Shown here: positions 3,990 through 24,712 of the stretch, in pieces
How the letters are laid out: each line of letters begins with the position of its first letter
Numbering within the stretch: position 1 is the stretch's first letter
From: Azoarcus sp. DN11
GTDB lineage: Bacteria > Pseudomonadota > Gammaproteobacteria > Burkholderiales > Rhodocyclaceae
Reading direction: 5' to 3'
NCBI RefSeq assembly: GCF_003628555.1
Contig: NZ_CP021731.1
Location: 2,480,001-2,544,000 of the forward strand
Length of the DNA stretch: 64,000 bases
The notes under the pieces: generated by a model
Told to the model about the DNA's origin: nothing
Seen by the model: only the letters and a program-made list of their open reading frames with translations
Database searches by the model: none
Program-made: the position numbers and the translations under genes

Positions 3990-4567
3990 TCTTCGAGACC
4001 ATCGTCACCACCGTCGATGCCGACGGGCGCCCGCACTGCGCGCCGATGGGCGCGCGCTACGTGTCCGACGAGGTCGTGCTGATGCCGTTCCGGCCGTCGG
4101 CGACGCTCGACAACATCCTCGCGAGCGGCGTCGCGGTGATGAACCTCACGACCGACGTGCGCGTGTTCGCCGGCTGTGTCACGGGCCGGCGCGACTGGCC
4201 GACGGTGCCGGCCGAGCGCATCGCCGGGCACCGCCTCGCCGGTGCGCTGGCGCACGTCGAACTCCGGCTCGACGCCTGCGACGAGGGCCCGCAGCGGCCG
4301 GTGCTGCACTTCTCCCGCGTGTGCGAGCGCACACACGCGCCGTTCCCCGGCTTCAACCGCGCCCAGGCCGCCGTCGTCGAAGGGGCCGTGCTCGTGAGCC
4401 GGCTGCGCATGCTGCCGGCCGAGAAGGTCGACAGCGAAATGGCCTATCTGCAGATCGCGATCGACAAGACCGCCGGGCCGGCCGAGCGCGAGGCGTGGGG
4501 GTGGCTCACCGAGGCGGTCGCCGCGCATCGCGCCGCAGCCTCCGGCACAGGACGGGCCGCAGCATGA
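3986..4567 (+). CDS. DUF447 family protein of the H4MPT cluster
   Basis: 193 residues beginning MIFETIVTTVDADGRPH, a DUF447 protein with a flavin-reductase/split-barrel-like N-terminus (GRPHCAPMGARY). DUF447 genes are nearly always found in methanogens and bacteria that carry methanopterin-type C1 genes. The precise reaction is not established to my knowledge. The start overlaps the upstream stop and its own stop overlaps the next ATG, which indicates a tightly coupled operon from 1928 or 2547 to 5250. Confidence 0.82.
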   Translation: MIFETIVTTVDADGRPHCAPMGARYVSDEVVLMPFRPSATLDNILASGVAVMNLTTDVRVFAGCVTGRRDWPTVPAERIAGHRLAGALAHVELRLDACDEGPQRPVLHFSRVCERTHAPFPGFNRAQAAVVEGAVLVSRLRMLPAEKVDSEMAYLQIAIDKTAGPAEREAWGWLTEAVAAHRAAASGTGRAAA

Positions 4568-5250
4568 TCCGCCTGCTTGCGAGTGTGCGTGACTGCGACG
4601 AAGCCTTGGCCGCCGCGGGCGCAGGGGCAGATTTCATCGACTTGAAGGAGCCGCGCGCCGGCGCACTCGGCGGGCTCGCGATCGAACGCATTCGCGAGAT
4701 CGTCGCCGCTCTGCGCGACGCACATCCAGTGGTGCCGGTGAGCGCGACCATCGGCGATTACCCGGCCGACGCAGCCGACGAGATCGACGCGCGCGTGGAT
4801 GCAGTCGGCACGTGTGGCGTCGATTACGTCAAGGTCGGCATCGCCGGTGGCGACGCGCGGGCGCAGCGCGCGCTCCTCGCGCGGCTCGCGGACTCGCAGT
4901 GGGCGGTCGTGCCGGTGTTCATTGCCGACCGCGGGCTCGACCCGGCCCTCGTCGAAGCCGCCTGCCGGTTGCCGTTTCCCGCGCTGATGGCCGACACCGA
5001 GGACAAGCGGGCGGGGAGCCTGTTCGACTGCGTGAGCGAAGCCGCGCTCGCCGCGTTCGTCGAACGCGTGCGGGGCGCGGGAAAGCTCGTCGGGCTGTCG
5101 GGGGCGCTGCGCGAACACCATCTGCCCCGCCTCGCATTGCTGGCGCCGGACTTCGCGGGTTTTCGCGGGGCGCTGTGCGACGGCGCGCGTACCGGCGTGC
5201 TCGACCCCGACGCGCTGCGGTCGGTACGCCGAGCACTGGCAGATGGCTGA
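4564..5250 (+). CDS. mfnB: (5-formylfuran-3-yl)methyl phosphate synthase
   Basis: 228 residues of the former DUF556 family. MfnB condenses two glyceraldehyde-3-phosphate molecules into the furan ring precursor of methanofuran/methylofuran. The Asp/Lys-rich N-terminal active-site strand FIDLKEPRAGALGG is present near residue 24, with YVKVGIAGG near 92 and a third conserved Lys region MADTEDKRAGSLFD near 140. The length matches the family. It overlaps DUF447 by four bases. The other furan-branch genes mfnE, mfnF and mfnD lie together at 25810-28497, separated by the accessory region. Confidence 0.87.
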   Translation: MIRLLASVRDCDEALAAAGAGADFIDLKEPRAGALGGLAIERIREIVAALRDAHPVVPVSATIGDYPADAADEIDARVDAVGTCGVDYVKVGIAGGDARAQRALLARLADSQWAVVPVFIADRGLDPALVEAACRLPFPALMADTEDKRAGSLFDCVSEAALAAFVERVRGAGKLVGLSGALREHHLPRLALLAPDFAGFRGALCDGARTGVLDPDALRSVRRALADG

Positions 5251-7090: not shown

Positions 7091-10000
7091 ATGCTGAGGT
7101 CAATGATCTCCTTCGCGCTGCTGCGCCGGCCCATCATCCTGCTCGGCCTCATTGTGTTTATCGGTGCCGGCATCGCTGCCTTCACCAAGCTCAATATCGA
7201 AGCCTATCCGAATCCGGCGCCGGTGATCCTCGAGATCACGGCGCAGACCTCTGGTCTCTCCGCCGAGGAAATGGAGCGCTATTACACAGTGCCCATGGAA
7301 GTGGGGCTGGCGGCGACGCCCGGCGTGGAAAGCATCCGCTCCACCTCCTTTTACGGCCTGTCGTTCGTCCGCGTCACCTTCAAGTACGGTATCGATTACT
7401 ACTTTGCCTATACGCAGGCTGCCAACAGCCTGCGGCAGAACGTTTCCCTGCCCAATGGGGTGCAGCCGCAGATTCAGGCGTCGAGCCTGGTGGGCGAAAT
7501 CTACCGCTATCAGTTGAAGGGGCCGAAGCACTTCGGTCTGACCAACCTGCGCACCCTGCAGGACTGGGTGCTGCAGCGCCGCTTCCTGACGGTGCCGGGC
7601 ATTCTGCAGGTGGTTGCGTGGGGCGGCACTACCAAAGAATATGAAGTCGAGGCCGACCCGCACAAGCTGCAGGCTTACCACGTCACCCTGCCGCAACTCA
7701 TCGCCGCACTGGGCAATGCCAACATCAACGTCGGCGGCCGCACCATCAATATTGGCCAACAATCCGTCAATGTGCGCGGTGTGGGCCTGATCGACAAGGT
7801 GGAGGACATCGAGAAGGTGGTCCTCAGCCAGACCAATGGCGCGCCGGTGTTGGTGAAGGACGTAGCCAAGGCCAGCATCGGCTATGTGCCACGCCTGGGT
7901 CAGGCTGGGCGCGACGGCGACGAGGACGTGGTGACCGGCGTGCTGGTGATGAACCGTACCCTGCAAACCAACGACGTGGTCGCCCGCGTCAAGCAGGAAG
8001 TGGAAAAGATCAACAGCGACGGCACCCTGCCGTCAGGCGTCAAAATCGAGCCCTATTACGACCGCTCCACGCTCGTCGGCGTCACGACGTATACGGTGCT
8101 GCACAACTTGATCTTCGGCTGTTTGCTGGTGTTCTTCATTCAGTGGATCTTCCTTGGCGACCTGCGCAGCGCGCTCATCGTCGGCGCCAACATTCCGTTC
8201 GCGCTGTTCTTCAGCATCATCATGCTGGTCCTAGCGGGTGAATCGGCCAACCTTCTGTCCGTCGGAGCGGTGGACTTCGGCATCATTGTCGATTCGGCGG
8301 TGATCCTGGTCGAGAACATCTTCCGCAATTTCCAGAAGAGCGCCGCCGACCGGCAGGGCCTCATCGATGACTACTCGCAAAGCCATCTGCGTATGCACAT
8401 GGACGGTGCGGAAGGGTGGACCAACCGCCTGCGCATGATCTTCATCAGCGCGTTGCAGGTGGACCGGGCGGTACTGTTCTCGTCCCTCATTACGGTAGCC
8501 GCCTTCATCCCCCTGTTCACCATGCAGGGGGTGGAGGGGCAGATCTTCGGGCCCATGGCGCGCACCTATGGCTATGCGCTGGCCGGCGCCTTGATCGCCA
8601 CTTTCACCATCACTCCGGTGCTGTCCTCGTATCTGTTGCCAAAGCATGTCGAGGAGACTGAAACCTGGCTGGTGGTGCACCTGCGCCGTATCTACGCGCC
8701 TGTACTGAAATGGGCGCTGGCGCGCCGGCGCACCACAGTCGGCCTGGGCGTTGTCTTCCTGCTGCTGGCCGGACTCCTGGTGCCGCGCATCGGCAGCGAG
8801 TTTTTGCCGGCGCTGGAAGAAGGCAATTTGTGGATACGCGTCACCATGCCCCCACCATTTCGCTGGACGCTGGCAATGCGGCGGTGAACCGCATGCGCGA
8901 GATCCTCCAGAGCCATCCGGAAATCATCACTGTGGTGTCCCAGCATGGTCGCCCGGACGACGGTAGCGACGCCTCGGGGTTTAACAACTGCGAGTTCTTT
9001 GTGCCGTTGAAGCCTTTTGATGACTGGCCGGCCGGCCGGACCAAAGACCAGCTGGTGGCGGAGTTGCAACGGGAATTCGCCAACGAGTTCACCGGCATGG
9101 AGTTCAACTTCTCGCAGTACATCCAGGACAACATCGAGGAAGGGTTGTCGGGCATCAAGGGCGCCAATTCCATCAAGATCATTGGCCGGGATCTCCCCAC
9201 CCTGGAGAAACTGGCCGACCAGGTGCAGCATGAGATGGCGCAGATCTCGGGGGTGGAGGATCTGGGCGTGTTCCACGTGCTTGGCCAGCCGAACCTGAAC
9301 GTAACGGTGGACCGCGCCAAGGCAGCGCGCTACGGCCTCAACGCTGGCGACATCAATACCGTCGTGCAGGCCGCCATGGGCGGCGCCCAGGCGACCACAG
9401 TGCTGGAAGGGGACCGCCAGTTCGCGCTGACGGTACGTCTGGCGCCGGAGTACCGCAAGTCCATCGATGCTGTGCGCAAGTTGCGGGTGACATACCAGAA
9501 CGCCGCTGGCGGAACTTCCTACATCCCCTTATCGGATCTGGCCACCATCTCGTTGGATACCGGCGCCTCCTACATTTACCACGAGCGCAACGAGCGCTTC
9601 ATCCCGGTGAAGTTCAGTGTGCGCGGCCGTGACCTCGGCAGCACAGTAACCGAGGCGCAGGTGCGTATCGCCCAGAAGGTCAAGCTGCCGCAGGGCTACC
9701 GGCTGCAATGGGCCGGGGAATTCGAAGAACTGCAGCAGGCCAAGGACCGCTTGGCGGTGATCCTGCCGATCGCCCTGGTTATCATCCTGGTGCTCCTGTA
9801 CGCACTCTTCAATTCCTTGCGCGACAGCCTGTTGACGCTCGCGGCCATACCCTTCGCCATTGCCGGCGGCGTAGTGGCGCTCTATCTGTCTGGCCTGGCC
9901 TTGAGCGTGTCGGCGGCGATCGGCTTTGTCTCACTGTTCGGTGTGTCAGTGATGAACGGCATCCTCGTCATCACATACTTCAACCAACTGCGGTCGGAAG

Positions 10001-10275
10001 GACAGGAACCGATGGAGGCGATGTTCAATGCAGCTAGCCAACGCATGCGTCCCATGTTGATGACATCGCTATCGGCCTGCATCGGCCTGCTGCCGGCCGC
10101 ACTATCGACCGGCATTGGCAGCCAGGTGCAGCGGCCGCTGGCCACTGTGGTGGTGGGCGGCATGCTGATCGGCCCTGTCATGCTGCTGGTGGTGGCACCA
10201 GCCCTGCAGATGATGTTCCTCGGCGCCAAACCGGCCCAGTCTGCGCCGGCGAGTGATTACGATGAGACCGTCTAA
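7091..10275 (+). pseudogene. CzcA-type heavy-metal RND pump, frameshifted
   Basis: With one frameshift repaired this would be a 1061-residue inner-membrane proton/metal antiporter. The first part (7091 to about 8850) carries TM1, the first periplasmic loop and the TM4 motif DFGIIVDSAVILVEN typical of HME-class RND pumps. The second part (from about 8854) continues at TISLDAGN and ends after TM12. At 8849-8853 a run of five Cs appears one base short: the expected reading MPPTISLD becomes MPPPFRW and stops at 8887. The rest of both halves is intact and well conserved, so this is either a recent mutation or a sequencing error. Confidence 0.88.
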
Positions 10276-10653: not shown

Positions 10654-11822
<1,169 letters not shown>

Positions 11823-13410
11823 CTCCAAAGACGGTTACTCAGGCGACAGACTATGCGCCCGCTCCGCTGCCGGTGACGACGACTGCGGCGCCCGTGGCCG
11901 GCGGCGACGCCCAGCACTTTGTGTTCGGCCGAGACATCCCGGCCGAGTGGTGGCGTCTCTTCCAATCGCCCCAACTGGACACGCTCATCCGGCAGGCGTT
12001 CAAGGCCAACCCCACCATTGAGGCCGCACAAGCGGCGCTGCGGCAGGCGCAGGAGAATGTCTATGCACAGCAGGGCTTTTTCTATCCCACCGTGCAGGCG
12101 AACTATTCGCCTTCACGCATCAAGCTGTCGGGCAATACTGGCGGTAACTCGCCGGGCCTGCAGGGGGACGGCTCGGTGATTGCCACTGGACAGACCGATA
12201 CGGTGCCACCGGCTAGCACGCCGGTGATCTACAACTGGCACAGCGCCCAACTGACCGTGGGCTATGTGCCGGACGTGTTTGGCGGGAACCGTCGCCAGGT
12301 CGAGTCCTTGGAGGCGCAACGGCAAGCGCAACGCTTGCAACTCGAGGCCACCTATCTCACCCTGGCCAGCAACGTGGCGGCGGCGGCCATTCAGGAAGCC
12401 TCTCTGCGCGAGCAAATTGCGGCCGTGAATCACATCATCGCGACCAATACCCAATCGCTGGACATCCTGCAGCAACAGTTCCGCCTGGGCTACGCCATGC
12501 GTCTTGACGTGGCAGCCCAGGAGGCGGCCCTCGCACAGGCAAGGCAGTTGCTGCCACCGCTCCAGAAGCAGTTGGCGCAGACGCGGGATCTGATTCGGGC
12601 ACTCGCCGGCAAGCTACCGAGCGAGGAAGTGGCGGAAACCTTCACCCTGGCGGCGCTGCATTTGCCCACTGAGCTCCCCCTGAGCCTGCCGTCCGACCTC
12701 GTTGTACAGCGCCCCGATATCCGTGCAGCGGAGGAACAGCTGCACTCGGCGAGCGCCCAGGTGGGTGTCGCGCTCGCAGCACGGCTGCCCCAGTTCTCGA
12801 TCAATGCCATCGCAGGCGGCAATGCGGCGCGCTTCGGCGATATGTTCATGGACTCAGGCAAGTTCTTCAGCATCGTCGGCAACGTGACGCAGACGCTCTT
12901 CGATGGCGGCACTCTGCGGCATCGCCAACTGGCTGCGGAAGAAGCGTTGGCCCAGGCGAAAGCACAGTACCGCGGCACCGTACTGACCGCGTTCCAGAAT
13001 GTGGCCGACACCTTGCATGCCCTCCACGTCGACGCCGACGCGCTGAAAGCCGCCGTGGAGTCCGAACGGGCAGCTCAGATCACGCTGGATCTGATCCGTA
13101 AACAACAGGAACTGGGCTATGTGAATTACCTGGCCCTGCTGAATGCCGAACAAAGCTATCAGTTGGCGGCAATCACCTTGGTCCAAGCGCAGGCAGCTCG
13201 TTACGGCGATACCGCGGCACTCTTCCAAGCCCTCGGGGGCGGTTGGTGGAACCGCAAGCCAGCCGAGGGCGACAAGTTGGCCTCAGACACGCGCCTGTCG
13301 AGCCAATAAGCCAAAGGACTAGACCGGCCGGGCGTGAAAGATGGTTACGATGCATTATCTGGAGCGAATGACGATAAGGCGCAACCTATACCCCGAGACA
13401 GCGAGGCAAA

Positions 13411-14127
13411 ATGGATACCCCAAAAAACAATGGGTTTGCTATCGGCGGTCGTATCCTCGTCATCGAGGACGAGCCGGACACGATCGGCTATCTCTGCGAC
13501 GGTCTCAGGGAAGCAGGCTATACGGTCACCTGGAGTGCCGACGCCGACGAGGGGGAACGCCTGGCCGGAGCAGGGCGCTGGGACGCTATCATCCTCGACC
13601 GCATGCTGCCGCACGACGTTGACGGGCTTTCCATCCTGCGTGCTCTGCGCGCGGCCGGTGACGATACTCCGGTGATGGTCCTGAGTGCACTCGCAACGCT
13701 GGATGAACGGGTACGTGGCCTGCGCGGCGGCGGCGATGACTACCTGACCAAACCATTCGCGTTGCCGGAGGTCCTCGCCCGCATCGAAGTACTGATGCGC
13801 CGCGCCGGCAGGCAGGAGGAGGTGCGAGAACTGTGCATTGCCGACCTCCGGCTCGACTTGACGACACGGCGCGTCGAACGTGCCGGCAGGCCGGTGCTGC
13901 TGCAACCCAAGGAGTTCCGCCTGTTGGAGTACCTGGTGCGCCACCAGGGCCAGGTCGTTACCCGCACCATGCTGCTGGAGTCGGTCTGGGACTATCGCTT
14001 CGATCCGCAAACCAACGTGATTGATGTGCAGATCAACCGCCTGCGCAACAAGATCGACAAGGATTTCGCCCCGCCATTGCTGCATACGGTGCGCGGCGTC
14101 GGTTACCGGTTGAGTGTCGATGGTTAG
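13411..14127 (+). CDS. OmpR/PhoB-family response regulator (CusR-like)
   Basis: 238 residues. The receiver domain (about 12-125) has the acidic pair IEDEPD, the phospho-acceptor Asp in DAIILDRML and the switch Lys in LTKPF. A winged-helix DNA-binding domain follows (about 140-235; NVIDVQINRLRNKID, VRGVGYRL). It starts 101 bases after the efflux genes and overlaps the kinase gene start. By position it likely senses metal through the partner kinase and activates the 5845-13309 operon. Confidence 0.9.
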   Translation: MDTPKNNGFAIGGRILVIEDEPDTIGYLCDGLREAGYTVTWSADADEGERLAGAGRWDAIILDRMLPHDVDGLSILRALRAAGDDTPVMVLSALATLDERVRGLRGGGDDYLTKPFALPEVLARIEVLMRRAGRQEEVRELCIADLRLDLTTRRVERAGRPVLLQPKEFRLLEYLVRHQGQVVTRTMLLESVWDYRFDPQTNVIDVQINRLRNKIDKDFAPPLLHTVRGVGYRLSVDG

Positions 14128-15553
14128 ACTGTGGCACTCCGTCGCGTTCCGTCTGGCCTCGACGGCCGGCATCTTATTAGTGCTGGCGGTGGTTTTGCTG
14201 TCGTCAGTCTTCTATGTTGGCACCATTGGTGTACTGTCGCGGGGAGCGGACAACAAAATCCGGTCGATCTCGTCGCATCTGAATCAGGATTTCGAGACGC
14301 GTGGCCTAGCCGCGCTGGTGCTGAAGATTCAGTCGGCACTCACGGACGGAGTGGACTCGGACACCGAGATCTATCTGCTCACCACCCCCACTGGCGCGAA
14401 ATTGGCAGGCAACATCGCAGCCTGGGCTGATGCCACTGTGCCGCTGGACCGGGTCATTGAACATGACGTGACCCGCGACCATCGTATATCCTCGGCCCAT
14501 CTGCTGCTACACCGCCTGCCCGATGGCTCATTGCTGATCGTCGGACGCGACATGCAGGATTTGGTCGATATCGAGCGCCTTATTTCACGCGCACTGGCCA
14601 TTGGTGGGGCCGCAGCACTCGTTCTTGCCATCGGTGGTACGTTGTTGCTTCGCCGCCTTATCGAGCGACGTATCTCCACCATCCGGCACACGGCCCACGC
14701 CATCGAAGCGGGCAACCTCCACCAGCGCATCCCGGTGAGCGAGGGCGGCGATGAATTCACCCGCCTCAGCAACGAACTGAACCATATGCTGGACCGCATC
14801 CAGCAGTTGATGGACGGCGTGCGCCACGTCTCCAACGTCATCGCACACAACCTGCGCACACCACTGGGCCGCATACGGGGCCATTTGGAGAAGGCCCTGC
14901 GCACGCCGGCCGACAGTGTCATGTTGGCGCGGGAGGCCAATTATGTTATCGACGAGGTCGATGGCCTCATCGTCGTATTGGAAAAACTGCTGCAGATCGC
15001 GGAGGCGGAATCCGGCACGCGCCGCCAGCCCTTCGAGCCGGTTGATCTGCGCGAACTGGTCACCGATGTGGTCGAGCTCTACGACGCCGCCGCGGAGGCG
15101 CTTGGCATCCGGCTCATTAGCTCGGTCGAGGAAGCGTCGCACATTCTCGGTGACCGTGATCTTATCGCATGCGCACTCGGCAACCTGCTCGACAACGCCT
15201 TCAAATACGCCGGAGAAAACGCCCTCGTGCTCATTCACATCTTCCAGCGACGCGACGGTGTGGCCCTCATTGTCCAGGACAACGGTCCCGGCATCCCGCT
15301 CGAGGAACGCACGCGGGTCCTGCAGCGCTTCTACCGGCTGGACGGCGCCCGTCCGGGACACGGCCTGGGTCTCTCCATCGTGGCGGCCATCGCACAGGCG
15401 CACGGCGCCACCTTGCATCTTGATGACGCCAAACCGGGGCTGCAGGTGCGGCTTCTGTTTCCCTTGGTGACGTCAGGCTCCGTCACATTGGTCGCCGGCA
15501 ACAGTGTGAGTGGGAGGTCTGCGTGCAACGCCGTACATTCAGCGCCATGTTAG
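14120..15553 (+). CDS. sensor histidine kinase partner of the upstream regulator
   Basis: 477 residues from ATG 14120, overlapping the regulator gene. Two membrane helices (about 10-35 and 155-180) flank a periplasmic loop of about 120 residues. A HAMP segment leads into the H-box, here IAHNLRTPLGRIRGH, in which Asn replaces the more usual Glu/Asp after the phospho-acceptor His. The ATPase boxes follow: N-box LLDNAFKYA, G1 VQDNGPGIP and G2 GHGLGLSIV. The loop ligand is not evident from sequence; metal is inferred from neighbours. Confidence 0.9.
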   Translation: MVRLWHSVAFRLASTAGILLVLAVVLLSSVFYVGTIGVLSRGADNKIRSISSHLNQDFETRGLAALVLKIQSALTDGVDSDTEIYLLTTPTGAKLAGNIAAWADATVPLDRVIEHDVTRDHRISSAHLLLHRLPDGSLLIVGRDMQDLVDIERLISRALAIGGAAALVLAIGGTLLLRRLIERRISTIRHTAHAIEAGNLHQRIPVSEGGDEFTRLSNELNHMLDRIQQLMDGVRHVSNVIAHNLRTPLGRIRGHLEKALRTPADSVMLAREANYVIDEVDGLIVVLEKLLQIAEAESGTRRQPFEPVDLRELVTDVVELYDAAAEALGIRLISSVEEASHILGDRDLIACALGNLLDNAFKYAGENALVLIHIFQRRDGVALIVQDNGPGIPLEERTRVLQRFYRLDGARPGHGLGLSIVAAIAQAHGATLHLDDAKPGLQVRLLFPLVTSGSVTLVAGNSVSGRSACNAVHSAPC

Positions 15554-15875
15554 TGATAATTCGGTGCGTTGAATGACACTGTCATGCTGGATGGGCATTT
15601 TATGGTTCGGAAAACCGGATTGGATCGGGTCCGCTTGTAGCGCGAACGCCGGCCACCTGTCCGTCGGCAACGAGACCAGACGCGGATCAGCGCATTGGGG
15701 AACATCCTCTGTCACCTCGCCGCTAGGAGCTTACGACAGATGGGTGTCGACAGCCATGCCCGACTTCGTGGGATCGATGATATTGGGTGGCGGGATGTCC
15801 CTTCGGGTTTTCCGCCCGCGGATTTGACGGCCTCGTCGAATGCCTCCTTTGTCGGCATCGCTGCCCGCCGCATCA
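15554..15875 (+). other. region without a recognisable gene
   Basis: Short frames exist on both strands but none has a convincing ribosome site or family signature. A minus-strand frame ending about 15735 (IIDPTKSGMAVDTHLS) could be the tail of a lost gene. A 12-base match (GCCTCGTCGAAT) to sequence just left of the second AraC copy (near 23887) suggests that rearrangement joined material here. Confidence 0.3.
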
Positions 15876-16331
15876 CCGCAACAGGCATGTGGCGGCTCTT
15901 ACCCTCGTGCCTTGCGGAACTCCGCCGGCGTCTGCTGCATCAGGCGGCGGAACATCGTGATGAAGGCCGAGGCGCTGGCGTAGCCGAGTTCGAGCGCGAC
16001 GGCTTCGACCGTGCGCCCGGCGGCGAGGAGCGGCATCGCCTTGAGGATGCGCAGGCGCTGGCGCCATTCCGACAGGGGCATGCCGAGATCGCGCTGGGCG
16101 CGGCGCAACAGCGTGCGTTCGGTGGTGTTGGCGAGCCACGCAAGCTCGGCCATCGTGCGGTTGTCGTCGGGGTGGGTGTCGAGGAACCGGAGCACGGCGC
16201 CGAGCGCCTGATTGGAGGACGAAGGGAGGTAGCTGCCGGCGCAGGGGGCGTGCGCGAGCTGGTCGACGAGCACCTGCAGGAGGCGGGTGTTTTCGGCGTC
16301 GCGAAGCGTGTCGGGCGCCTGCAGGCGCAGG
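15876..16331. repeat. 456-bp direct repeat, copy 1 (AraC C-terminal region)
   Basis: Nearly identical and of equal length to 23901-24356, in the same orientation, with only scattered substitutions. Both copies stop matching immediately after GGCGCCTGCAGGCGCAGG. The two copies bracket about 7.6 kb that includes the vapC 3' fragment and the riboswitch-controlled operon. Confidence 0.9.
15899..16331 (-). pseudogene. truncated AraC-family regulator (C-terminal half only)
   Basis: Encodes the last 140 or so residues of an AraC regulator, including both helix-turn-helices (MAELAWLANTTERTLLRRAQ and VEAVALELGYASASAFITMF), but lacks the N-terminal sensing/cupin domain and any proper start. It corresponds to the C-terminal half of the intact gene at 23924-24712. 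A 124-residue product from an internal ATG at 16273 is conceivable, but no ribosome site supports it. Confidence 0.85.
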
Positions 16332-16764: not shown

Positions 16765-19700
16765 TCACCTATTTAACAGAGCGAGGGAGAGCCTCTGCCG
16801 AAAGGCGTTGATGTCCTGTCCAATTGCAAACAGACAGGGAATCAGGAACAGGACATAGATCGAGGAACTGACCATCCCGCCGATGGTCGGCGTAGCGATG
16901 GGTTTCATGATCTCGATGCCGGGTCCATTAAGGAACATGATCGGCAGCAACGACAACGTGGCACAGGCGACAGTCATCAGCTTGGGGCGCAGGCGGGCGA
17001 CGGAGCCCTCGACAACCGCCTCCATGTAGCTTGCGCCTTCGCCTCTTCTCGCCAGTGCCCAGCGGATGAACACGATCATGATGATGCCGGTCTGGATGGC
17101 TACCGCGAACAAGGCGATGTAGCCGATGATGACGGCAGTCGTCATCGAATAGCCCAGCGCCCACTGCAGCGCCACTGCGCCGACAAAGGCGAAAGGCGCC
17201 GACAGCATGATGACCAGGCTATCGGTCAGGGAGCGGAAGGCCATGACCAGCAAGGCAAGCATGATCACCAGCGTGGCGGGCACGATCCATTTGAGCTGCG
17301 CGTGGGAACGGGCGACATTCTGGTGCTCGCCGGTCCATTCAACTGCATAGCCCGCGGGCAGTTCCAGCTTCTCGGCAAGCAGCGCTTGCGCCTTGTCCAC
17401 GTAGTCCGCCGCACTGGCATTGCCGACATCGACATAGACATAACTCGTCAGGGCACCATTTTCGTTGCGCAGCATTTCCGGCAATTTACGTACCGACACC
17501 TCGGCAATTTCGCTCAGCGCCACCGAGCGCTGCCCCGACGCCACGACCGGCGTGTTGCGGATCTTTTCAAGCGTATCGATGTACTCGGGCGCGTACTGGA
17601 TGCTCAGAGGAGTAGTCAGGTTGTTGTGATCCTTGAAGGCAGCGACATTGTCCCCGCCGATGGCATAACGTGCCGTCAGCATCGCTTCGTCGGTGCGGAT
17701 GCCCAGCCGGGCCAGCCGTACCGGGTCGAACTGGGTATCGATGAAATAACCCGATGAGATGCGCTCGGCAATTACCGATTGGCTTTCCGGGAGGGTTCGC
17801 AGCAGTTCCTCGATCTGCTGGCCGAGGGTCTCCAGGGTGGCAATGTCGTTGCCCTTGATCTTCAGGCCGACGGCCGTCTGAATGCCCGTATCCTGCATTG
17901 CCACACGGGCGCTGATCGGCTGCACCCAACTGTTTACATACCCGGTGATCTTCATTGCGGCGTCCATCTCGGCGACCAGCTTTTCCTTGGTCATGCCGTC
18001 TCGCCACTCGGCCTTGGGCTTAAGGAGGATGGTGGTCTCGATCATCGACACCGGTGCTGGATCGGTTGAGGTATCGGCCCGCCCGAGCTTGCCGAACACC
18101 CGCTTGACCTCCGGGAAAGCGGCCAGCTTCTTGTCCATTTGCTGCAGGATCCATGCGGCTTCGCGGACGGGGACGCCGGGCAGTGTGGTTGGCATGTAAA
18201 GAACCGTCCCCTCGTCCATGCGCGGCATGAAATCGGTCCTGAAATGACTGAGCAGGAGGATGGCCCCGGCAATCGCCGCCAGACTGCCTCCGAGGAAAAC
18301 ATAGCGGAATCGAATGGCTTGGGTCACCGCGCGGCGATAGCCACGCACCAATCCCGAATTGGCCGGCGTGCGGCCGGGTTCCACCTGGGCGTCTTTCCTC
18401 AAAATCCATTGGATGAGGATGGGGAGCAGGAACATCGTCAGCAAGGTGGAAAAGGCCATGGCAAAGGTCTTGCTGTAGGCCAGCGGGTCGAACAACCGGC
18501 CTTCCTTTTCGGTCAGGAAGAAGACGGGCAGGAAGGACACAAGGATGATGAGCAGCGAGAACAGCAGGGGGCGAGCCACGTGGGCGATGGATTGAACGAT
18601 GATTGCCCGTCGTCCTTCCGCACTGACCACACCAGCCATGCGGCGACGTGCCGCCAGCTCGGCCGTGCAGTTCTCGACAATGACGATGGTCGCGTCCACC
18701 ATTTCGCCGATGGCAATGAAGAGGCCGGCCAGGGAGAACAGGTTGATGGTCTGATGGAAGCCCGCCAGCGGGATGGCGGTAAAGGCGACGCCCAGCAGGA
18801 GGATGACCACCGGCGCCACGGCAGTGCGGGCATTGCGCAGGAACAGGACCATCACCGTGATCACGACGACCAGTTCGTAAGCGAGCGTGCACAGGAAGTG
18901 TTCGAGCGTGTCCCAGATCAGCGCCGAGCGGTCGTAGGTGGTGACGAGATCGACACCGGGCGGCAGTCCAGCCTTGAGTTCCGTGAGCTTCTGGTCAAGG
19001 GCACGGGTGATTTCCAGGACATTCTGCTTCTGCTCCATCACCACAATGCCGCCCACCACTTCGCCCTTGCCGTCGAGTTCGGCGACTCCGCGGCGCTGGT
19101 CATAGCCCACCTGAATGAAGCCGATATCTTTCAAATGCACAGGGGTGCCGTTCGGGCGATGGCCGACGACCATCAGTTCGAGCTGGTCGATGTTGTGGTA
19201 AGTGACGATGCCACGAATCTGATAATCCCGGTTGGTCACCTCCAGCGTGCGCCCGCCCGCCTCTGGAAAGGCGTTCTGGAAGGTGGCCACGATCTGCTTC
19301 AGGGAGAGGCCCGATTCGGCCAGGAGCGGCGGAAAGAGCTTGAGCTGGTACTGCTTTTCAAGGCCACCCACCGAGGCGACTTCGGCGACGCCCGGTACAC
19401 TTTGCAGCCCCGGCTTGACCTGTTGCTCATGCAGCAGGCGCAGGTCACGCAGGTCGAGCAAGCCGTCCGCACTGACCAGTGCGTACTGATAGATCCAGCC
19501 CATGCTGCTGGCGTTGGGACCGAGCGTCACGGTGGCATCGGCAGGCAATTGCGGGCGAATCGCGTTCAGCCGGTCGGCCACGATTTTCTGGATGGGAGCG
19601 CGTTGTGATTCGCGCTTCAGGATGACGTAGATGAACGAAAACCCCATGTGCGAGGTGCTGCGGATCGACTGGATGCCGGGCGTCCCGGCCAGGGACTTGA

Positions 19701-19905
19701 TCACCGGCTCGGTGACCTGGGCCTCCAGAAGCTGCGGACTGCGCGGCCATTTTGCATAGAGGACGATCTGCGGATCGGAAATGTCTGGAATGGCGTCCAG
19801 GGGCGCCGTGAAAATGGCGTAGGCGCTCAGTACGATGGCGGCGAGCACACTCGCCAGGACGAGCAGCCGGTGCCGGATGATATTTTCAATGATGGTGATG
19901 TTCAT
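16765..19905 (-). CDS. CusA-like heavy-metal RND pump under riboswitch control
   Basis: 1046 residues, full length for an HME-class pump, with twelve membrane segments in two halves. TM4 has IAIGEMVDATIVIVENC, close to the CusA form. Two of the three periplasmic substrate methionines of E. coli CusA appear conserved (VSMIETT and VAMQDTG); the third position is Ile (RLGIRTDE). The usual role would be proton-driven export of Cu(I)/Ag(I). The gene is last in a four-gene operon, overlaps the adaptor gene by 20 bases and lies downstream of a cobalamin riboswitch, so its substrate could instead be cobalt or a corrinoid. This is unproven. Confidence 0.88.
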   Translation of the reverse strand: MNITIIENIIRHRLLVLASVLAAIVLSAYAIFTAPLDAIPDISDPQIVLYAKWPRSPQLLEAQVTEPVIKSLAGTPGIQSIRSTSHMGFSFIYVILKRESQRAPIQKIVADRLNAIRPQLPADATVTLGPNASSMGWIYQYALVSADGLLDLRDLRLLHEQQVKPGLQSVPGVAEVASVGGLEKQYQLKLFPPLLAESGLSLKQIVATFQNAFPEAGGRTLEVTNRDYQIRGIVTYHNIDQLELMVVGHRPNGTPVHLKDIGFIQVGYDQRRGVAELDGKGEVVGGIVVMEQKQNVLEITRALDQKLTELKAGLPPGVDLVTTYDRSALIWDTLEHFLCTLAYELVVVITVMVLFLRNARTAVAPVVILLLGVAFTAIPLAGFHQTINLFSLAGLFIAIGEMVDATIVIVENCTAELAARRRMAGVVSAEGRRAIIVQSIAHVARPLLFSLLIILVSFLPVFFLTEKEGRLFDPLAYSKTFAMAFSTLLTMFLLPILIQWILRKDAQVEPGRTPANSGLVRGYRRAVTQAIRFRYVFLGGSLAAIAGAILLLSHFRTDFMPRMDEGTVLYMPTTLPGVPVREAAWILQQMDKKLAAFPEVKRVFGKLGRADTSTDPAPVSMIETTILLKPKAEWRDGMTKEKLVAEMDAAMKITGYVNSWVQPISARVAMQDTGIQTAVGLKIKGNDIATLETLGQQIEELLRTLPESQSVIAERISSGYFIDTQFDPVRLARLGIRTDEAMLTARYAIGGDNVAAFKDHNNLTTPLSIQYAPEYIDTLEKIRNTPVVASGQRSVALSEIAEVSVRKLPEMLRNENGALTSYVYVDVGNASAADYVDKAQALLAEKLELPAGYAVEWTGEHQNVARSHAQLKWIVPATLVIMLALLVMAFRSLTDSLVIMLSAPFAFVGAVALQWALGYSMTTAVIIGYIALFAVAIQTGIIMIVFIRWALARRGEGASYMEAVVEGSVARLRPKLMTVACATLSLLPIMFLNGPGIEIMKPIATPTIGGMVSSSIYVLFLIPCLFAIGQDINAFRQRLSLALLNR

Positions 19906-20599
19906 TGCTGGGAGGTGTGATCGAGCACATGTCCTGTCCGGGCGCTTTCAGCTTCTCTTCGGCATCGACGAAGAAACTCCCGATCGAGACCACCCGGTCG
20001 CGTTCAAAAAGGCCATGCCGAACTTCCGTATAGAGTTCCCCTTTCAGTCCGGTACGAATCGATCGAGGTGCATACAGACCGCTGCCGGCCGGCTGCATTT
20101 CGATATAGGCGACTTGCTCGCCACCGTCCTCGATAATGGAAACGTTGGGAATCGAAAGATAGGGGCCGCGCTCGACAACGATCTCCATCAGGTAGCGAGC
20201 CCCGGGGGAGTGCCCCTGATCTGCCAGCGTCGCCTGGACAAGGACGCCGCCGGTTTGCCGCAGGACTTTAACGGTTTTGCCCTGGTGCATTTGCGTTCGG
20301 GCATTGGCGGCGAAACTGCGAGTGCGCTGGCCCACCTGGAGCCCGTCGGCTTCCAATGTGCTTAGCCGGGCCGATATGGTTCTGCCACCCGGATCGACCG
20401 TGCCGACCGTGCGTATCCAGGTCTGGATAGGGCGCACTGAGGCTTCAGTCAGGGTCAGGGTCAGGTCGCTGGCCTGTGCTTCGGTAATCTTGACGCCGCC
20501 GGCCTGGGCCGCTCGCATGCGCTCGCGCAGATCCGCGCCTTGGGCAGGCAACACTGCCAGACACCACAGGCCGGCAACGGTAATGGCAAAGCGATTCAC
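19886..20599 (-). CDS. short RND adaptor-like protein with His-rich C-terminus
   Basis: 237 residues with a signal peptide (about 1-21), far shorter than CusB (about 400). The segment RPIQTWIRTVGTVDPGGRTI resembles the beta-barrel entry of membrane-fusion proteins. SIPNVSIIEDGGEQVAYIE and the RDRVVSIGSFFVDAEEKLK tail fit the membrane-proximal part of CusB-type adaptors. I see no lipoyl halves and no long helical hairpin, so it could not reach a TolC-type channel in the normal way. The C-terminus (MCSITPPSNEHHHH) is rich in metal ligands and is encoded across the start of the pump gene. Confidence 0.75.
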   Translation of the reverse strand: MNRFAITVAGLWCLAVLPAQGADLRERMRAAQAGGVKITEAQASDLTLTLTEASVRPIQTWIRTVGTVDPGGRTISARLSTLEADGLQVGQRTRSFAANARTQMHQGKTVKVLRQTGGVLVQATLADQGHSPGARYLMEIVVERGPYLSIPNVSIIEDGGEQVAYIEMQPAGSGLYAPRSIRTGLKGELYTEVRHGLFERDRVVSIGSFFVDAEEKLKAPGQDMCSITPPSNEHHHH

Positions 20600-20637
20600 T
20601 TTGGTCTCGACTCCGGGGGAATTCCGGCAAGCCCGGA

Positions 20638-20669
20638 CCGGTCATTCCCGCCTTGGCGGAAATGACCGG
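20638..20669. other. strong hairpin in the operon between propeller and adaptor genes
   Basis: CCGGTCATTCCCGCC and GGCGGAAATGACCGG form a 15-bp stem with one mismatch around a two-base loop. It lies in the 91-base gap between the two genes and is not followed by a T-run in either direction. It may be an intercistronic RNA-processing or stability element, or a dispersed palindrome. Confidence 0.6.
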
Positions 20670-20690
20670 ATCGGGCCATCGCCAGGCAAG

Positions 20691-21929
20691 TCAATGACAA
20701 TAGTTGTCCTTGCTGTCCATGACGTGCGTTCCCCAGGGATACAAGCCGACGTTCGGAATTCGCTCGACGGCTTCCGTCTTGCCGTCGATGATGTAGACGG
20801 AGTGATCGGTCGATCCTGCCAGGTAGATTTTCTGGTCTGCCGTGTCGGTGGTGGCGGTCTCCAGTTGCAGATTCGTACCGATCTTGATGCGGCCGGCGGG
20901 CTTCAGGGTGTTCATGTCGTACACGTAAACAAAGCTTGTCGTCGAACTGATGACGAAAGCCTTGCCGGCTGCAAAGTTCACCCCGGTCATGTCCGGGCCG
21001 GCCGGCAGCGTGGCGGCCACTTCGTTCTTCTGGAGATCGATGATGGAAATGGTCTCGTCGCCGTTGTTTACCGTGATGGCGTACTTGCCGTCATGCCCCA
21101 TGTAGATGCGCCAGGGATTCTGTCCGACGCGGATGACTTTGACGACCTTGTCCTCGCGGGTATCGATGACTCCCACCACGCCCAGGTCGCCGTCGGCGGC
21201 ATAAATGTAGCGCCCGTCGATGCTCATGGCGGGCATAGAGATACCCTTGATGTCCTTCAGGTACTTGCCGGGGTCAAGGCGCGAAATTCCGGGCACGCTG
21301 GCAATCTGGATTTTCTTGAGCAACTGGTGTCGGGTCACATCGATCACGCCCACCCAATGCGCACCGTAATTGCCCACGTAAGCCTTCGAGCCATCGTGGG
21401 TGAAGGTGATATTGAGCGGTTCGGCCAAGCCTTCGATGGTCTTGATCACGCTGAGCGAAGCCATGTCGATGACGGTGATCGAGTCGCCCTCGGGATTGCC
21501 CTGGTAGTAGTAGCGCCCGTCCGGGGAAAAGGAGAAGTGCTCCGGCGCAATTCCGACCGGAATCTTTTTGACCAGTTCGAGGGTGCGGGCATCGATGACG
21601 TAGGCCGTGTTGGCTCGGGTGCCGCCGGTGACGACATAGCGCCCGTCGGGCGACATCATCACCATGTGCGGATTCACGTTGTTGCCGAGGAAAGTGTGGC
21701 CGAGGATTTTCCTGGTCTTGATGTCCATGAAGGCGATGTCGTTGGAATCACGGTTCACGATCATGACGACGGAAGTCGGGTCGGTAACAATCGTCTTGGC
21801 GGATGACGAGGCATGGGACATTGCCATACCGGGCATCAGTTTCATCTGAGCATTGGCAGACTGCGGGATAGCGACGCTGAGGGCGACAATGGCGCCGGCG
21901 ATGATGCTGTTCAGGTTCAGCTTCGGCAT
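20691..21929 (-). CDS. YncE-like beta-propeller, periplasmic
   Basis: 412 residues with a signal peptide (about 1-27), then repeated beta-propeller blades of the YVTN/YncE kind (VVMIVNRDSNDIAFMD, GRYVVTGGTRANTAYVID, KAYVGNYGAHWVGVID, GKYAITVNNGDETISIID). The mature N-terminus MKLMPGMAMSHASS is rich in Met and His, and the C-terminus ends DNYCH, both plausible metal sites. It lies 22 bases after the porin gene in the same operon. Family members bind varied partners; a metal- or corrinoid-binding or scaffold role is inference from neighbours. Confidence 0.82.
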   Translation of the reverse strand: MPKLNLNSIIAGAIVALSVAIPQSANAQMKLMPGMAMSHASSSAKTIVTDPTSVVMIVNRDSNDIAFMDIKTRKILGHTFLGNNVNPHMVMMSPDGRYVVTGGTRANTAYVIDARTLELVKKIPVGIAPEHFSFSPDGRYYYQGNPEGDSITVIDMASLSVIKTIEGLAEPLNITFTHDGSKAYVGNYGAHWVGVIDVTRHQLLKKIQIASVPGISRLDPGKYLKDIKGISMPAMSIDGRYIYAADGDLGVVGVIDTREDKVVKVIRVGQNPWRIYMGHDGKYAITVNNGDETISIIDLQKNEVAATLPAGPDMTGVNFAAGKAFVISSTTSFVYVYDMNTLKPAGRIKIGTNLQLETATTDTADQKIYLAGSTDHSVYIIDGKTEAVERIPNVGLYPWGTHVMDSKDNYCH

Positions 21930-21951
21930 TTCATGATCTCCTTGTATTCTT

Positions 21952-23442
21952 TCAGAAGCTGACCTTCAGTCGAGCCCCGGGTACCAGGTAGCTGCCCTGC
22001 GTCTTGGATTCGGTGACGTATTGCAGGAGGAAGGAAAGTGCCATGTGCTCGGTCATGCGCAGGTTGTAGAACCCTTCCATGACTTTTTCTTTGGCGCCTT
22101 CGCCCAGCTTGGTTTGCGCGTAGCCCACACCCCACATGTCGAGGGGGTTGAAGGCATAGGGAGCCTGGAAGGCCACGCCGCCGCTGTAGAACTTCATCGT
22201 GTCGGGGCCGGTGGGGAGACTGCCGACATAGCCGCTGCCATAGCGCCCGAACAGCGAGACTGCGGCAGTCAGTTTCTGGTCCGCGCTCAGGCCATAGCCG
22301 GTGCGGTTGGTGCCGCTGCTGTTGTCGCTCCTTGCCCACGCCCGGTAATGGCCTTCCTGCAGCATGAACGGCCGGGCGATATATTCCACCTCTGCCAGAG
22401 AATAGAGGGAGGTCGATAGGCTGGTTGCACGGTCATTACTCTGCTGGACGCCCAGCTTGAAATTCAGGTCGCCCTTGGGATCGTAGACGGCGGCCAATCC
22501 AAAGCCGTTGGATGTGAGGCCGAGGACCGGGTTGTTGACCAGGGCGCCGTTGATGAAACGTTCCGTTTCATCATTGGCAATGGCATTTCGGTCAAAAATG
22601 CTCGTCAAATCCAGGCGGCCGACGGTGAGGCCCAGTTTTTGATCGAACATCCCGGTTCTGATCCACGCTTCGCGCACATTCAACTGGTTGTTGCTGAGGC
22701 GGGCAGTCTGGTTGTTAACCAAGTTGAGAGCCGACGGGATTTCCTGGTCCGGGGAGGCGCCGCCGATTCCAACCAGATCTGCAAAAAACTCGGTATTCAG
22801 CGCCGCCGATTTGGCCCGGAAGGTCACGTCTGCGGCGGTAACCCCGTAGGCGTGATTTCTCGCTTGAGTCGGCCCCAGACCAGCCTGGGCTGATGATCCC
22901 TTCGTCTGATACGCCATTTGCGCCGTGGTGACACTGCTAACCCCCAATTCGACGCCGCTCTTCTTGTCGGCGGCCAAGGCGTCCTCGATCTCTTCACGAA
23001 TCGTCTGGCGGCGATAGACCCGTTCGCGCCGATAGGTCATCGCCGGCACGGCACCTTCCGCGGGGTGGTCATATTCGTTGCCGTTGGCATCGACGTAGAC
23101 CTGGACCTGCTTGACCGTGGTTTTGGGCTCGGACATCACCGCGCTGGTTTCCACATTGCTGAGCCGCGACTCCATCTCCTCCAAGCGCAGCGCCACCACG
23201 GAGGCGTTGGCCGCAGGCGTTTCAGCCTTTGGAAGGGCCTGGGCCAACAGTGCCTGTTGGGCCAGCATTTGTTGCTGCATTTCGAGCAACCGCTTTTCGA
23301 GCGTCTCGATGCGCTGCACCAGCGCCTTGCGCCCTGGATCGGCTTTGCCGGGCCTTGCCGGCTCTTCGGCAGCGTTGGCGTGGAAATTGAGTGCCGAAAG
23401 AAGCGCAACCGCGATCGCGGTGCGTTTGAGATGGTGGTGCAT
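21952..23442 (-). CDS. outer-membrane porin with N-terminal coiled coil
   Basis: 496 residues. A signal peptide (about 1-24) is followed by a coiled-coil stretch with heptads (IETLEKRLLEMQQQMLAQQA, about 45-70, and LRLEEMESRLSNVE). A beta-barrel of amphipathic strands follows and ends in the classic aromatic C-terminus (VPGARLKVSF). The arrangement resembles trimeric porins with a periplasmic coiled coil. Ribosome site AAGGGGG precedes ATG 23442. It is the first gene after the cobalamin riboswitch, so its expression should fall when cobalamin is plentiful. Confidence 0.82.
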   Translation of the reverse strand: MHHHLKRTAIAVALLSALNFHANAAEEPARPGKADPGRKALVQRIETLEKRLLEMQQQMLAQQALLAQALPKAETPAANASVVALRLEEMESRLSNVETSAVMSEPKTTVKQVQVYVDANGNEYDHPAEGAVPAMTYRRERVYRRQTIREEIEDALAADKKSGVELGVSSVTTAQMAYQTKGSSAQAGLGPTQARNHAYGVTAADVTFRAKSAALNTEFFADLVGIGGASPDQEIPSALNLVNNQTARLSNNQLNVREAWIRTGMFDQKLGLTVGRLDLTSIFDRNAIANDETERFINGALVNNPVLGLTSNGFGLAAVYDPKGDLNFKLGVQQSNDRATSLSTSLYSLAEVEYIARPFMLQEGHYRAWARSDNSSGTNRTGYGLSADQKLTAAVSLFGRYGSGYVGSLPTGPDTMKFYSGGVAFQAPYAFNPLDMWGVGYAQTKLGEGAKEKVMEGFYNLRMTEHMALSFLLQYVTESKTQGSYLVPGARLKVSF

Positions 23443-23563
23443 GGATCCCCCTTGTTCCGGCGAGCGTCCCCGCAGCCGGTCATTGTCGAACGTAAAGCGG
23501 AGCAGGGGAAAACAGGGGCAGTTGCACTGGCCGCCGCATCCCCGCAGCGCTTTTGCTGATTGT

Positions 23564-23745
23564 CGGCGGCAGGTCTCCTGGCTCTCGGGTCATCGCGCTT
23601 CGCAAGCCTTCCCGGAACATGTCCAGTGGCATACAGGGGCGAAGCGCTCGCCGATTACAGTTGCGGGGGCAGCTCCGGCATTCGGACGCTCGGTCCGGCA
23701 CCGGATTCCCTTTTAATCCCCGGGAGGGGAACCATCAACGACGTC
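23564..23745 (-). promoter_or_regulatory. cobalamin (B12) riboswitch
   Basis: On the minus strand all hallmark blocks occur in order: GGTTCCCCTCCC...TTAAAAGGGAA near the 5' end (23700-23735), the core CTGCCCCCGCAACTGTAA (about 23657-23674), GCCACTG (about 23624-23630) and the 3' B12 box GAGCCAGGAGACCTGCC (23568-23584). About 120 bases separate the box from the porin ATG and would hold the expression platform. This class normally lowers expression when adenosylcobalamin binds. Confidence 0.95.
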
Positions 23746-23746
23746 A

Positions 23747-23775
23747 GTCTATGACTTTCTGCATATCCTCGTCAA
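23747..23775 (-). promoter_or_regulatory. predicted sigma70 promoter of the riboswitch operon
   Basis: Minus strand TTGACG (23775-23770), a 17-base spacer and ATAGAC (23752-23747). Transcription would start a few bases before the riboswitch. The flanking DNA is unusually AT-rich (about 23776-23825), unlike most of the window. Confidence 0.6.
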
Positions 23776-23900
23776 GTGTTTTAACTATATATAGTGCATT
23801 TAGCTAAATGTTGCACTACCAATAGTGGTATGTACATTTCTCCGAGCTCCAGCTCCCAAGAACCGGGCCATAACCCAACTGAATCTGCCTCGTCGAATTG

Positions 23901-24356
23901 CCGCAACAGGCATGTGGCGGCTCTTACCCTCGTCCCTTGCGGAACTCCGCCGGCGTCTGCTGCATCAGGCGACGGAACATCGCGATGAAGGCCGAGGCGC
24001 TGGCGTAGCCGAGTTCGAGGGCGACGGCTTCGACGGTGCGCCCGGCGGCGAGGAGCGGCATGGCCTTGAGGATGCGCAGGCGCTGGCGCCATTCCGAGAG
24101 GGGCATGCCGAGATCGCGCTGGGCGCGGCGCAACAGCGTGCGTTCGGTGGTGTTGGCGAGCCGCGCAAGCTCGGCCATCGTGCGGTTGTCGTCGGGGTGG
24201 GTGTCGAGGAACCGGAGCACGGCACCGAGCGACGGATCGGACGAGGAGGGGAGGTAGCTGCCGGCGCAGGGGGCGTGTGCGAGCTGGTCGACGAGCACCT
24301 GCAGGAGGCGGGTGTTTTCGGCGTCGCGAAGCGTGTCGGGCGCCTGCAGGCGCAGG
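23901..24356. repeat. 456-bp direct repeat, copy 2
   Basis: Matches 15876-16331 in the same orientation without length change. This copy is part of the intact AraC gene and is therefore probably the source. Confidence 0.9.
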
Positions 24357-24712
24357 TGGTCGAGGAGCGCGACGATGAGCGGGCTGACGGCGAGCGCGCA
24401 GGGATTGCGGGGCAGGCGATCGCACAGCGGCGCGGCGACGTACAGCGAGCAGTATCCCGCCTCGTTGCGGTTGAGGCCGACATGGGCGACGCCGGGCGGC
24501 AGCCACACGCCGTACTGGGGCGGGGCGAGGAAGTGTTCGCGTTCGACCTGGATTTCCATCACGCCCCTGAACGAATAGACGAATTCGCCGCCGGCGTGCT
24601 TGTGCATCGGGAAGAGGGTGTTCGCCGGCAGGGCCGTGGCACGGAAGTGGATCGGCGCGGGCAGGTGCTCGCCCTGCGGTTCCATGCGCTGCATGTTGCG
24701 GAAGTGCTTCAT
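23924..24712 (-). CDS. AraC-family regulator with cupin domain
   Basis: 262 residues. The N-terminal AraC-type cupin (about 20-110) shows HKHAGGEFVYSFRGVMEI and WLPPGVAHVG; the C-terminal pair of helix-turn-helices (about 165-255) ends QQTPAEFRKGRG. It is divergent from the EamA transporter gene with 132 bases between starts, the usual layout for a regulator and its target exporter. Effector unknown. Its 3' half is duplicated at 15876-16331. Confidence 0.9.
   Translation of the reverse strand: MKHFRNMQRMEPQGEHLPAPIHFRATALPANTLFPMHKHAGGEFVYSFRGVMEIQVEREHFLAPPQYGVWLPPGVAHVGLNRNEAGYCSLYVAAPLCDRLPRNPCALAVSPLIVALLDHLRLQAPDTLRDAENTRLLQVLVDQLAHAPCAGSYLPSSSDPSLGAVLRFLDTHPDDNRTMAELARLANTTERTLLRRAQRDLGMPLSEWRQRLRILKAMPLLAAGRTVEAVALELGYASASAFIAMFRRLMQQTPAEFRKGRG

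Follow-up and report, generated by a model that had tools for sequence, protein, structure and literature searches.

Why a cobalamin riboswitch should stand in front of a metal pump is the question raised by a four-gene operon of Azoarcus sp. DN11 (assembly GCF_003628555.1, contig NZ_CP021731.1, positions 2,480,001 to 2,544,000; this stretch of 64,000 nucleotides is called the window here, and coordinates are counted from its first letter). Encoded on the reverse strand, the operon comprises an OprB-like outer-membrane porin of 496 aa with a heptad-rich N-terminal stretch (21952..23442), a periplasmic eight-bladed beta-propeller of 412 aa whose fold and residue matches place it closest to the d1 domain of cytochrome cd1 (20691..21929), a short CusB-like adaptor of 237 aa for which sequence and model indicate membrane-proximal and beta-barrel parts and a His-rich C-terminus (19886..20599), and a CusA-family resistance-nodulation-division (RND) pump of 1046 aa with Met571, Met621, Met670 and Glu623 of the Cu(I)/Ag(I) type (16765..19905). 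The known targets of cobalamin riboswitches are B12 synthesis, the uptake of cobalt and corrinoids, and isoenzymes that need no B12. It makes little sense to find a plain cobalt exporter on such a switch, since cobalt efflux generally follows cobalt, and it is cobalt import that follows a product such as adenosylcobalamin, according to passages of one published account (PMC7689651).

That the unit belongs to the B12 regulon in beta- and gammaproteobacteria, through a riboswitch of its own, is as well supported as sequence allows. In the window, the cobalamin riboswitch RF00174 was the sole Rfam match at gathering score (123.2 bits, gathering 31.5; E 1.9e-30). Its adenosylcobalamin aptamer is full length (model 1-189 of 189; 23551..23751, reverse strand), ends 108 nt before the porin start and has the top score among the seven cobalamin riboswitches found in the host genome. 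The clear B12 riboswitch of the original prediction, which was made from the letters and open reading frames of the window, was thus borne out by the covariance model, and so were the four tightly packed genes behind it, with gaps of 22 nt (porin-propeller) and 91 nt (propeller-adaptor) and a 20-nt overlap of adaptor and pump. The "matching promoter" fared worse. The site TTGACG-18-TAGACT (23746..23775, reverse strand) is a weak sigma-70-like match (9/12 positions; one found against 0.3 expected) and may not be a real promoter, since the first 6 nt of the aptamer model are shared with its second hexamer. Fold prediction of the leader found no clear hairpin or switch sequestering the ribosome-binding site (z -0.35). 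Upstream of the promoter-like site, a palindromic stretch, TAGTGC ... ATTTAGCTAAAT ... GCACTA (23792-23818), is a possible operator.

The unit extends well beyond this host. A named genome collection scanned by pattern yielded 13 loci (one from Dechloromonas, two alphaproteobacterial and ten acidobacterial), and the order porin-propeller-adaptor-pump was kept in all 13; the pumps of loci L038 and L048 end at contig ends and that of L043 matches in two pieces. Genome searches, in which only the best candidates were scored and misses are possible, added copies in genomes G222 (L055), G591 (L057, complete, and L056, cut), G469 (L058), G791 (L075), G782 (L076) and G789 (L077, pump cut). Across the compared loci the porin takes first position, with the exception of L056, whose contig starts within the propeller gene; the two copies held by G591 are diverged from one another. 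The unit was found in 2/395 genomes of the host's family, in 3/369 drawn from its class (host included), in 4/24 of the order of G591 and in 1/3 of the order of G469, and the host was the only carrier found among 398 genomes drawn from its phylum. It is therefore rare and patchy, spanning Acidobacteria, Alphaproteobacteria and beta/gammaproteobacteria. No description of a four-gene operon of this kind under a B12 riboswitch was found among the best-ranked open-licence literature matches.

The same gene order with a riboswitch upstream, proposed earlier as a check on other genomes, was found in beta- and gammaproteobacteria, where all eight copies with upstream sequence have a cobalamin riboswitch immediately before the porin gene, about 110-200 nt from the start as called. 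Besides the window, the scores were 116 bits (L055), 87.8 (L057), 89.6 (L058), 81 (L075), 65.5 (L076), 83.1 (L077) and, for the copy cut by a contig end, 36.3 (L038). None of the 12 acidobacterial and alphaproteobacterial copies had a cobalamin riboswitch upstream at gathering score, nor did any of four such copies at E up to 1; 11 of the 12 hosts of riboswitch-free copies carry cobalamin riboswitches elsewhere in the genome. The genome-wide numbers for riboswitch hosts were at least three in G591 and in G782, at least two in G789 and at least four in G791 (79 of 98-183 candidates scored in each of these genomes) and two in G469 (all candidates scored). The adaptors of riboswitch copies are 35-76% identical to that of the window. 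In the pump tree, riboswitch copies fall into two separate well-supported groups, pointing to at least two changes; the propeller tree forces no more than one.

Cobalamin genes adjoin three of the beta/gammaproteobacterial copies. L057 and L075 each have a second riboswitch, on the opposite strand and the divergent side, that precedes a cbiA-type gene by about 0.9 kb, with a CbtA gene following in L057; the pump gene of L058 is followed, after 110 nt, by the start of a cbiA-type gene. The cbiA genes of L057 and L058 and the CbtA gene of L057 are confirmed by Pfam; the cbiA-type gene of L075 and further cobalamin genes of L057 were recognized by eye. Elsewhere in the Azoarcus genome, another cobalamin riboswitch (locus L062, 10259-11016) lies near a match to Rfam PYLIS_3 (mttB), with genes that appear by eye to be of the mttB and cobT types. 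Copper-type neighbors also occur: one alphaproteobacterial adaptor carries CopC, and CusF-type proteins are encoded near two riboswitch-free loci. One riboswitch-free locus, L040, has a Fur-family regulator upstream (4549-5022) and CusF downstream (12402-12782), and another regulator may stand in for B12 control at this locus. The acidobacterial copy L042 has downstream of it a gene of the HupE/UreJ family, which includes nickel/cobalt permeases (14633-15325).

What the pump moves is suggested by its metal site. The pump scored 801.2 bits against the CusA/CzcA family model TIGR00914 (cut-off 701.45). CusA binds Cu(I) through M573, M623, M672 and E625, with additional Met pairs serving as a relay, as given in parts of a published study (PMC8092243). 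Equivalents of these three Met residues and of E625 were found in all 20 family pumps counted, as was the equivalent of the proton-relay residue D405. By comparison, none of the 20 retains M391 or M501 of the transmembrane relay, nor either residue of the exit pair M271/M755, and a single one retains M410; the placement of the M1009 equivalent in the alignment is unsure. The host encodes two other Met-triad pumps (L081 and L082), which keep M391, M403, M410, M486 and M501, as well as a divalent-type pump (L083) without the triad. The presence of the Met triad in a pump without three of the transmembrane relay Met residues of CusA suggests a periplasm-only pump of the Cu(I)/Ag(I) class, taking metal from the periplasm and not from the cytosol.

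The partners of the pump are unusual for an RND system. No Pfam match was found for the adaptor, the C-terminal half of which matches CusB by sequence; against the CzcB/CusB family models it scored 24-26 bits, far under the cut-offs of 319-390. In its predicted model the stretch between residues 47 and 212 is free of helices, and the best structural alignment is to CusB, with 183 residues matched across CusB 79-393, so that on this model the adaptor is without lipoyl and hairpin domains, in agreement with the original prediction. A protein search gave 277 relatives at E up to 0.001, and 42 of the 120 homologues listed among them carry a CopC domain. A His-rich C-terminal tail was found in 8/9 riboswitch-group adaptors versus 0/11 others. 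The operon contains no TolC-type gene, and its outer-membrane gene encodes a porin instead, again as had been proposed: Pfam OprB matches at 40 bits (cut-off 22.9), best over profile positions 193-353 of 372. The heptads of the putative N-terminal coiled coil were read by eye, and no solved structural relative of the porin with a meaningful score was found.

The propeller passes PF02239, which covers the d1-domain proteins NirS, NirN and NirF (69.1 bits, cut-off 25.5), but it also passes YNCE (56.3 against 27.1) and Lactonase (42.8 against 21.7), so that the PF02239 match alone is weak. Its fold is closest to the heme-d1 propeller of cytochrome cd1; by Foldseek E-value, the generic propeller 1l0q ranks first, and hhalign against NirS gave a probability of only 59.7% (E 8.8e-5). 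His88, Arg60, Arg105 and Arg274 align with the equivalents of NirS H182, R156, R198 and R372, d1-binding residues that comprise the iron-ligand His and carboxylate-binding Arg, the Arg274-R372 match requiring a two-residue gap. In alignment A2 (43 rows, the propeller of the window included), His88, Arg60 and Arg274 are conserved in all rows and Arg105 in 41; 42 homologues of this very strongly conserved protein are 70-91% identical to the propeller of the window. The catalytic His327 and His369 of NirS are not kept, Lys225 and Trp273 occupying the aligned places. The C-terminal Cys-His of the propeller (20694-20699), a possible metal site, is present in 21/21 copies among the loci and in 43/43 rows of A2. 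Among the metal-ligand tails pointed out originally, this one and the His-rich adaptor tail of the riboswitch group hold up; the Met-rich N-terminus MKLMPGMAMSH is absent from several propeller copies and is not general. Other assignments were rejected, namely the zinc chaperone AztD (NF038015, 14.5 against a cut-off of 400) and lactonase-type NosZ (NF052460, 119.8 against 700); a profile match to NirF was out of register by one blade, an effect seen in repeat proteins, and was disregarded.

Taken with regulation, these features allow a tentative reading, preferred here though with limited confidence, in which a system induced at low B12 clears a competing periplasmic metal, chiefly copper, or a metal-tetrapyrrole, and so supports cobalamin synthesis. 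As cobalamin riboswitches work, the operon would be silent while adenosylcobalamin is abundant and expressed once it runs short. When expressed, the pump would draw on the proton gradient to remove a soft metal, Cu(I) being the likeliest, from the periplasm; the short adaptor would encircle the pump but make no bridge to a TolC, and the metal would leave the periplasm via the porin of the operon. The propeller, with its tetrapyrrole-binding fold and conserved axial-His position, could capture the metal or metal-tetrapyrrole and hand it on. The benefit would be that copper is kept from cobalt uptake and from corrin metalation while B12 is being made. Several points weigh against this. A Cu(I) pump accounts for neither the tetrapyrrole-type propeller nor B12 as the signal, and the host already has two other Met-triad pumps. 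The relay loss is partial evidence: M403 persists in 14/20 pumps and M486 in 19/20, and the exit pair is incomplete in L081 and L082 too (M755 is missing from both, and M271 from one of them), so that only the transmembrane relay loss is distinctive. The riboswitch-group adaptor tails are His-rich, not Met-rich, a composition no less suited to Co(II), Ni(II), Zn(II) or Cu(II). Moreover, we know of no RND precedent for export via a porin without a sealed duct.

The propeller and the adjoining cobalamin genes place transport of a corrinoid or metal-tetrapyrrole just behind copper clearing, which stands slightly ahead because the Met site is present in every pump counted. The propeller could be a periplasmic corrinoid carrier with His88 as the axial cobalt ligand, with the other three proteins of the operon carrying corrinoid or Co(II) across the envelope at low B12; this is possible but doubtful. 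The cd1-like propeller lends a corrinoid role indirect support, yet the Cu(I)/Ag(I) Met site occurs in 20/20 pumps, riboswitch-free copies can sit beside copper proteins, no RND importer of such a kind is known to us, and the likeness to NirS is qualified by the hhalign probability, the gap at Arg274 and the generic top hit of Foldseek. The specific and unlikely version is a trans-envelope route under B12 control for corrinoid or cobalt-tetrapyrrole, in which a d1-type propeller would bind corrinoid via His88 and work with the lipoyl- and hairpin-free adaptor, the CusA-derived pump and the porin. The original prediction had proposed a trans-envelope system for cobalt or corrinoid; an unusual, conserved and B12-controlled operon, near cobalamin-synthesis genes in some hosts, is what emerged, but cobalt as the pump substrate agrees poorly with the Cu(I) Met site, with the CopC and CusF links and with the lack of that site in the divalent-type L083.

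Two further explanations would make copper the business of the operon in other ways. A routine copper/silver efflux operon, in which the B12 riboswitch is an acquisition of no functional meaning, would fit the Met triad, the copper-type neighbors of some acidobacterial and alphaproteobacterial copies, and the mobility suggested by patchy distribution and a flanking repeat. It is nevertheless quite improbable, given a riboswitch in 8/8 beta/gammaproteobacterial copies despite adaptor identities of only 35-76% to that of the window, the two separate groups of riboswitch copies in the pump tree, the cobalamin genes beside three of them and the two other Met-triad pumps of the host. Still less probable is a loop in denitrifiers in which copper shortage stops NosZ, the accumulating nitrous oxide (N2O) inactivates B12, and the riboswitch turns on copper handling that feeds NosZ. 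PMC5987163, citing Sullivan 2013, reports modulation of B12-riboswitch genes by N2O and a build-up of N2O under copper limitation, and nosZ is present in the window host, in G222 and in a Dechloromonas metagenome-assembled genome. A pump of the CusA class would be expected to remove copper, not to supply it, and nosZ was found in only 4 of the 17 hosts tested (G782, G789 and G791 were left out), with none found in the riboswitch hosts G591 and G469; the loop was therefore rejected as a general explanation and fits some hosts only.

Among known systems, CusCBA of Escherichia coli is the closest relative of the pump and adaptor, through the 801-bit family match, the Met triad, E625 and D405 equivalents in 20/20 pumps, and the adaptor fold. 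It differs in having lipoyl and hairpin domains in its adaptor, the TolC-type CusC in place of a porin, no propeller, no B12 riboswitch control, and the relay residues M391, M410 and M501 that are nearly all lost here. The adaptor BesA of Borrelia burgdorferi keeps its lipoyl domain and its pump has the outer-membrane exit duct BesC, both unlike the present system. Unlike the nitrite reductase NirS, and also NirN and NirF, the propeller has no cytochrome c domain and has the added C-terminal Cys-His, and it lacks the catalytic His pair of NirS, with Trp273 and Lys225 at the places of His369 and His327; no strong NirS/F/N-type match was found in five riboswitch hosts. Cobalt uptake genes under B12 riboswitches, such as CbtA, share the regulator class, and one lies near L057, but they encode importers, whereas the pump here is of an RND exporter family. 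Cus genes beside thiocyanate dehydrogenase in Thiohalobacter and Guyparkeria also place a CusA-type gene and two of the CusB type close to a beta-propeller copper enzyme; that enzyme is seven-bladed, the gene order is different, and the relevant parts of that report do not mention a B12 riboswitch (PMC6504805).

The surroundings of the operon fit its acquisition by the host lineage, as suggested by flanking repeats and by an operon G+C content (60.3%) below that of the window (67.1%) and of both flanks (63.5% and 69.3%). The direct repeats align over 472 columns at 95.6% identity. The upstream-side copy (23885..24356) lies within, and just beyond, an AraC-type gene that is a full reading frame (23924-24712, reverse strand), and the downstream-side copy (15861..16331) is a fragment of such a gene. 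A plasmid origin was rejected (60 plasmid records gave a match, each of them spanning less than 80% of the adaptor at under 60% identity), as was a viral one (0/53 viral stretches encode a relative). Elsewhere in the window, a second RND pump on the forward strand has its match split over two open frames (7127-8851 and 8884-10206); a NodT-like outer-membrane factor, recognized by eye (11795-13309, forward strand), adjoins this other RND system, outside the operon, and a two-component system, also seen by eye, lies nearby (13411-15553).

A conserved CusA-class pump under a B12 switch means that the B12 regulon reaches either envelope metal export or a hitherto unknown step of corrinoid transport. 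The lipoyl- and hairpin-free RND adaptor, kept across phyla, bears on how RND pumping may proceed without a TolC bridge, and the propeller looks like an uncharacterized candidate tetrapyrrole- or metal-binding protein that is directly testable. If the corrinoid system were true, it would be, to our knowledge, the first RND system of corrinoid metabolism and would include the first cobalamin-binding beta-propeller of the cd1 kind.

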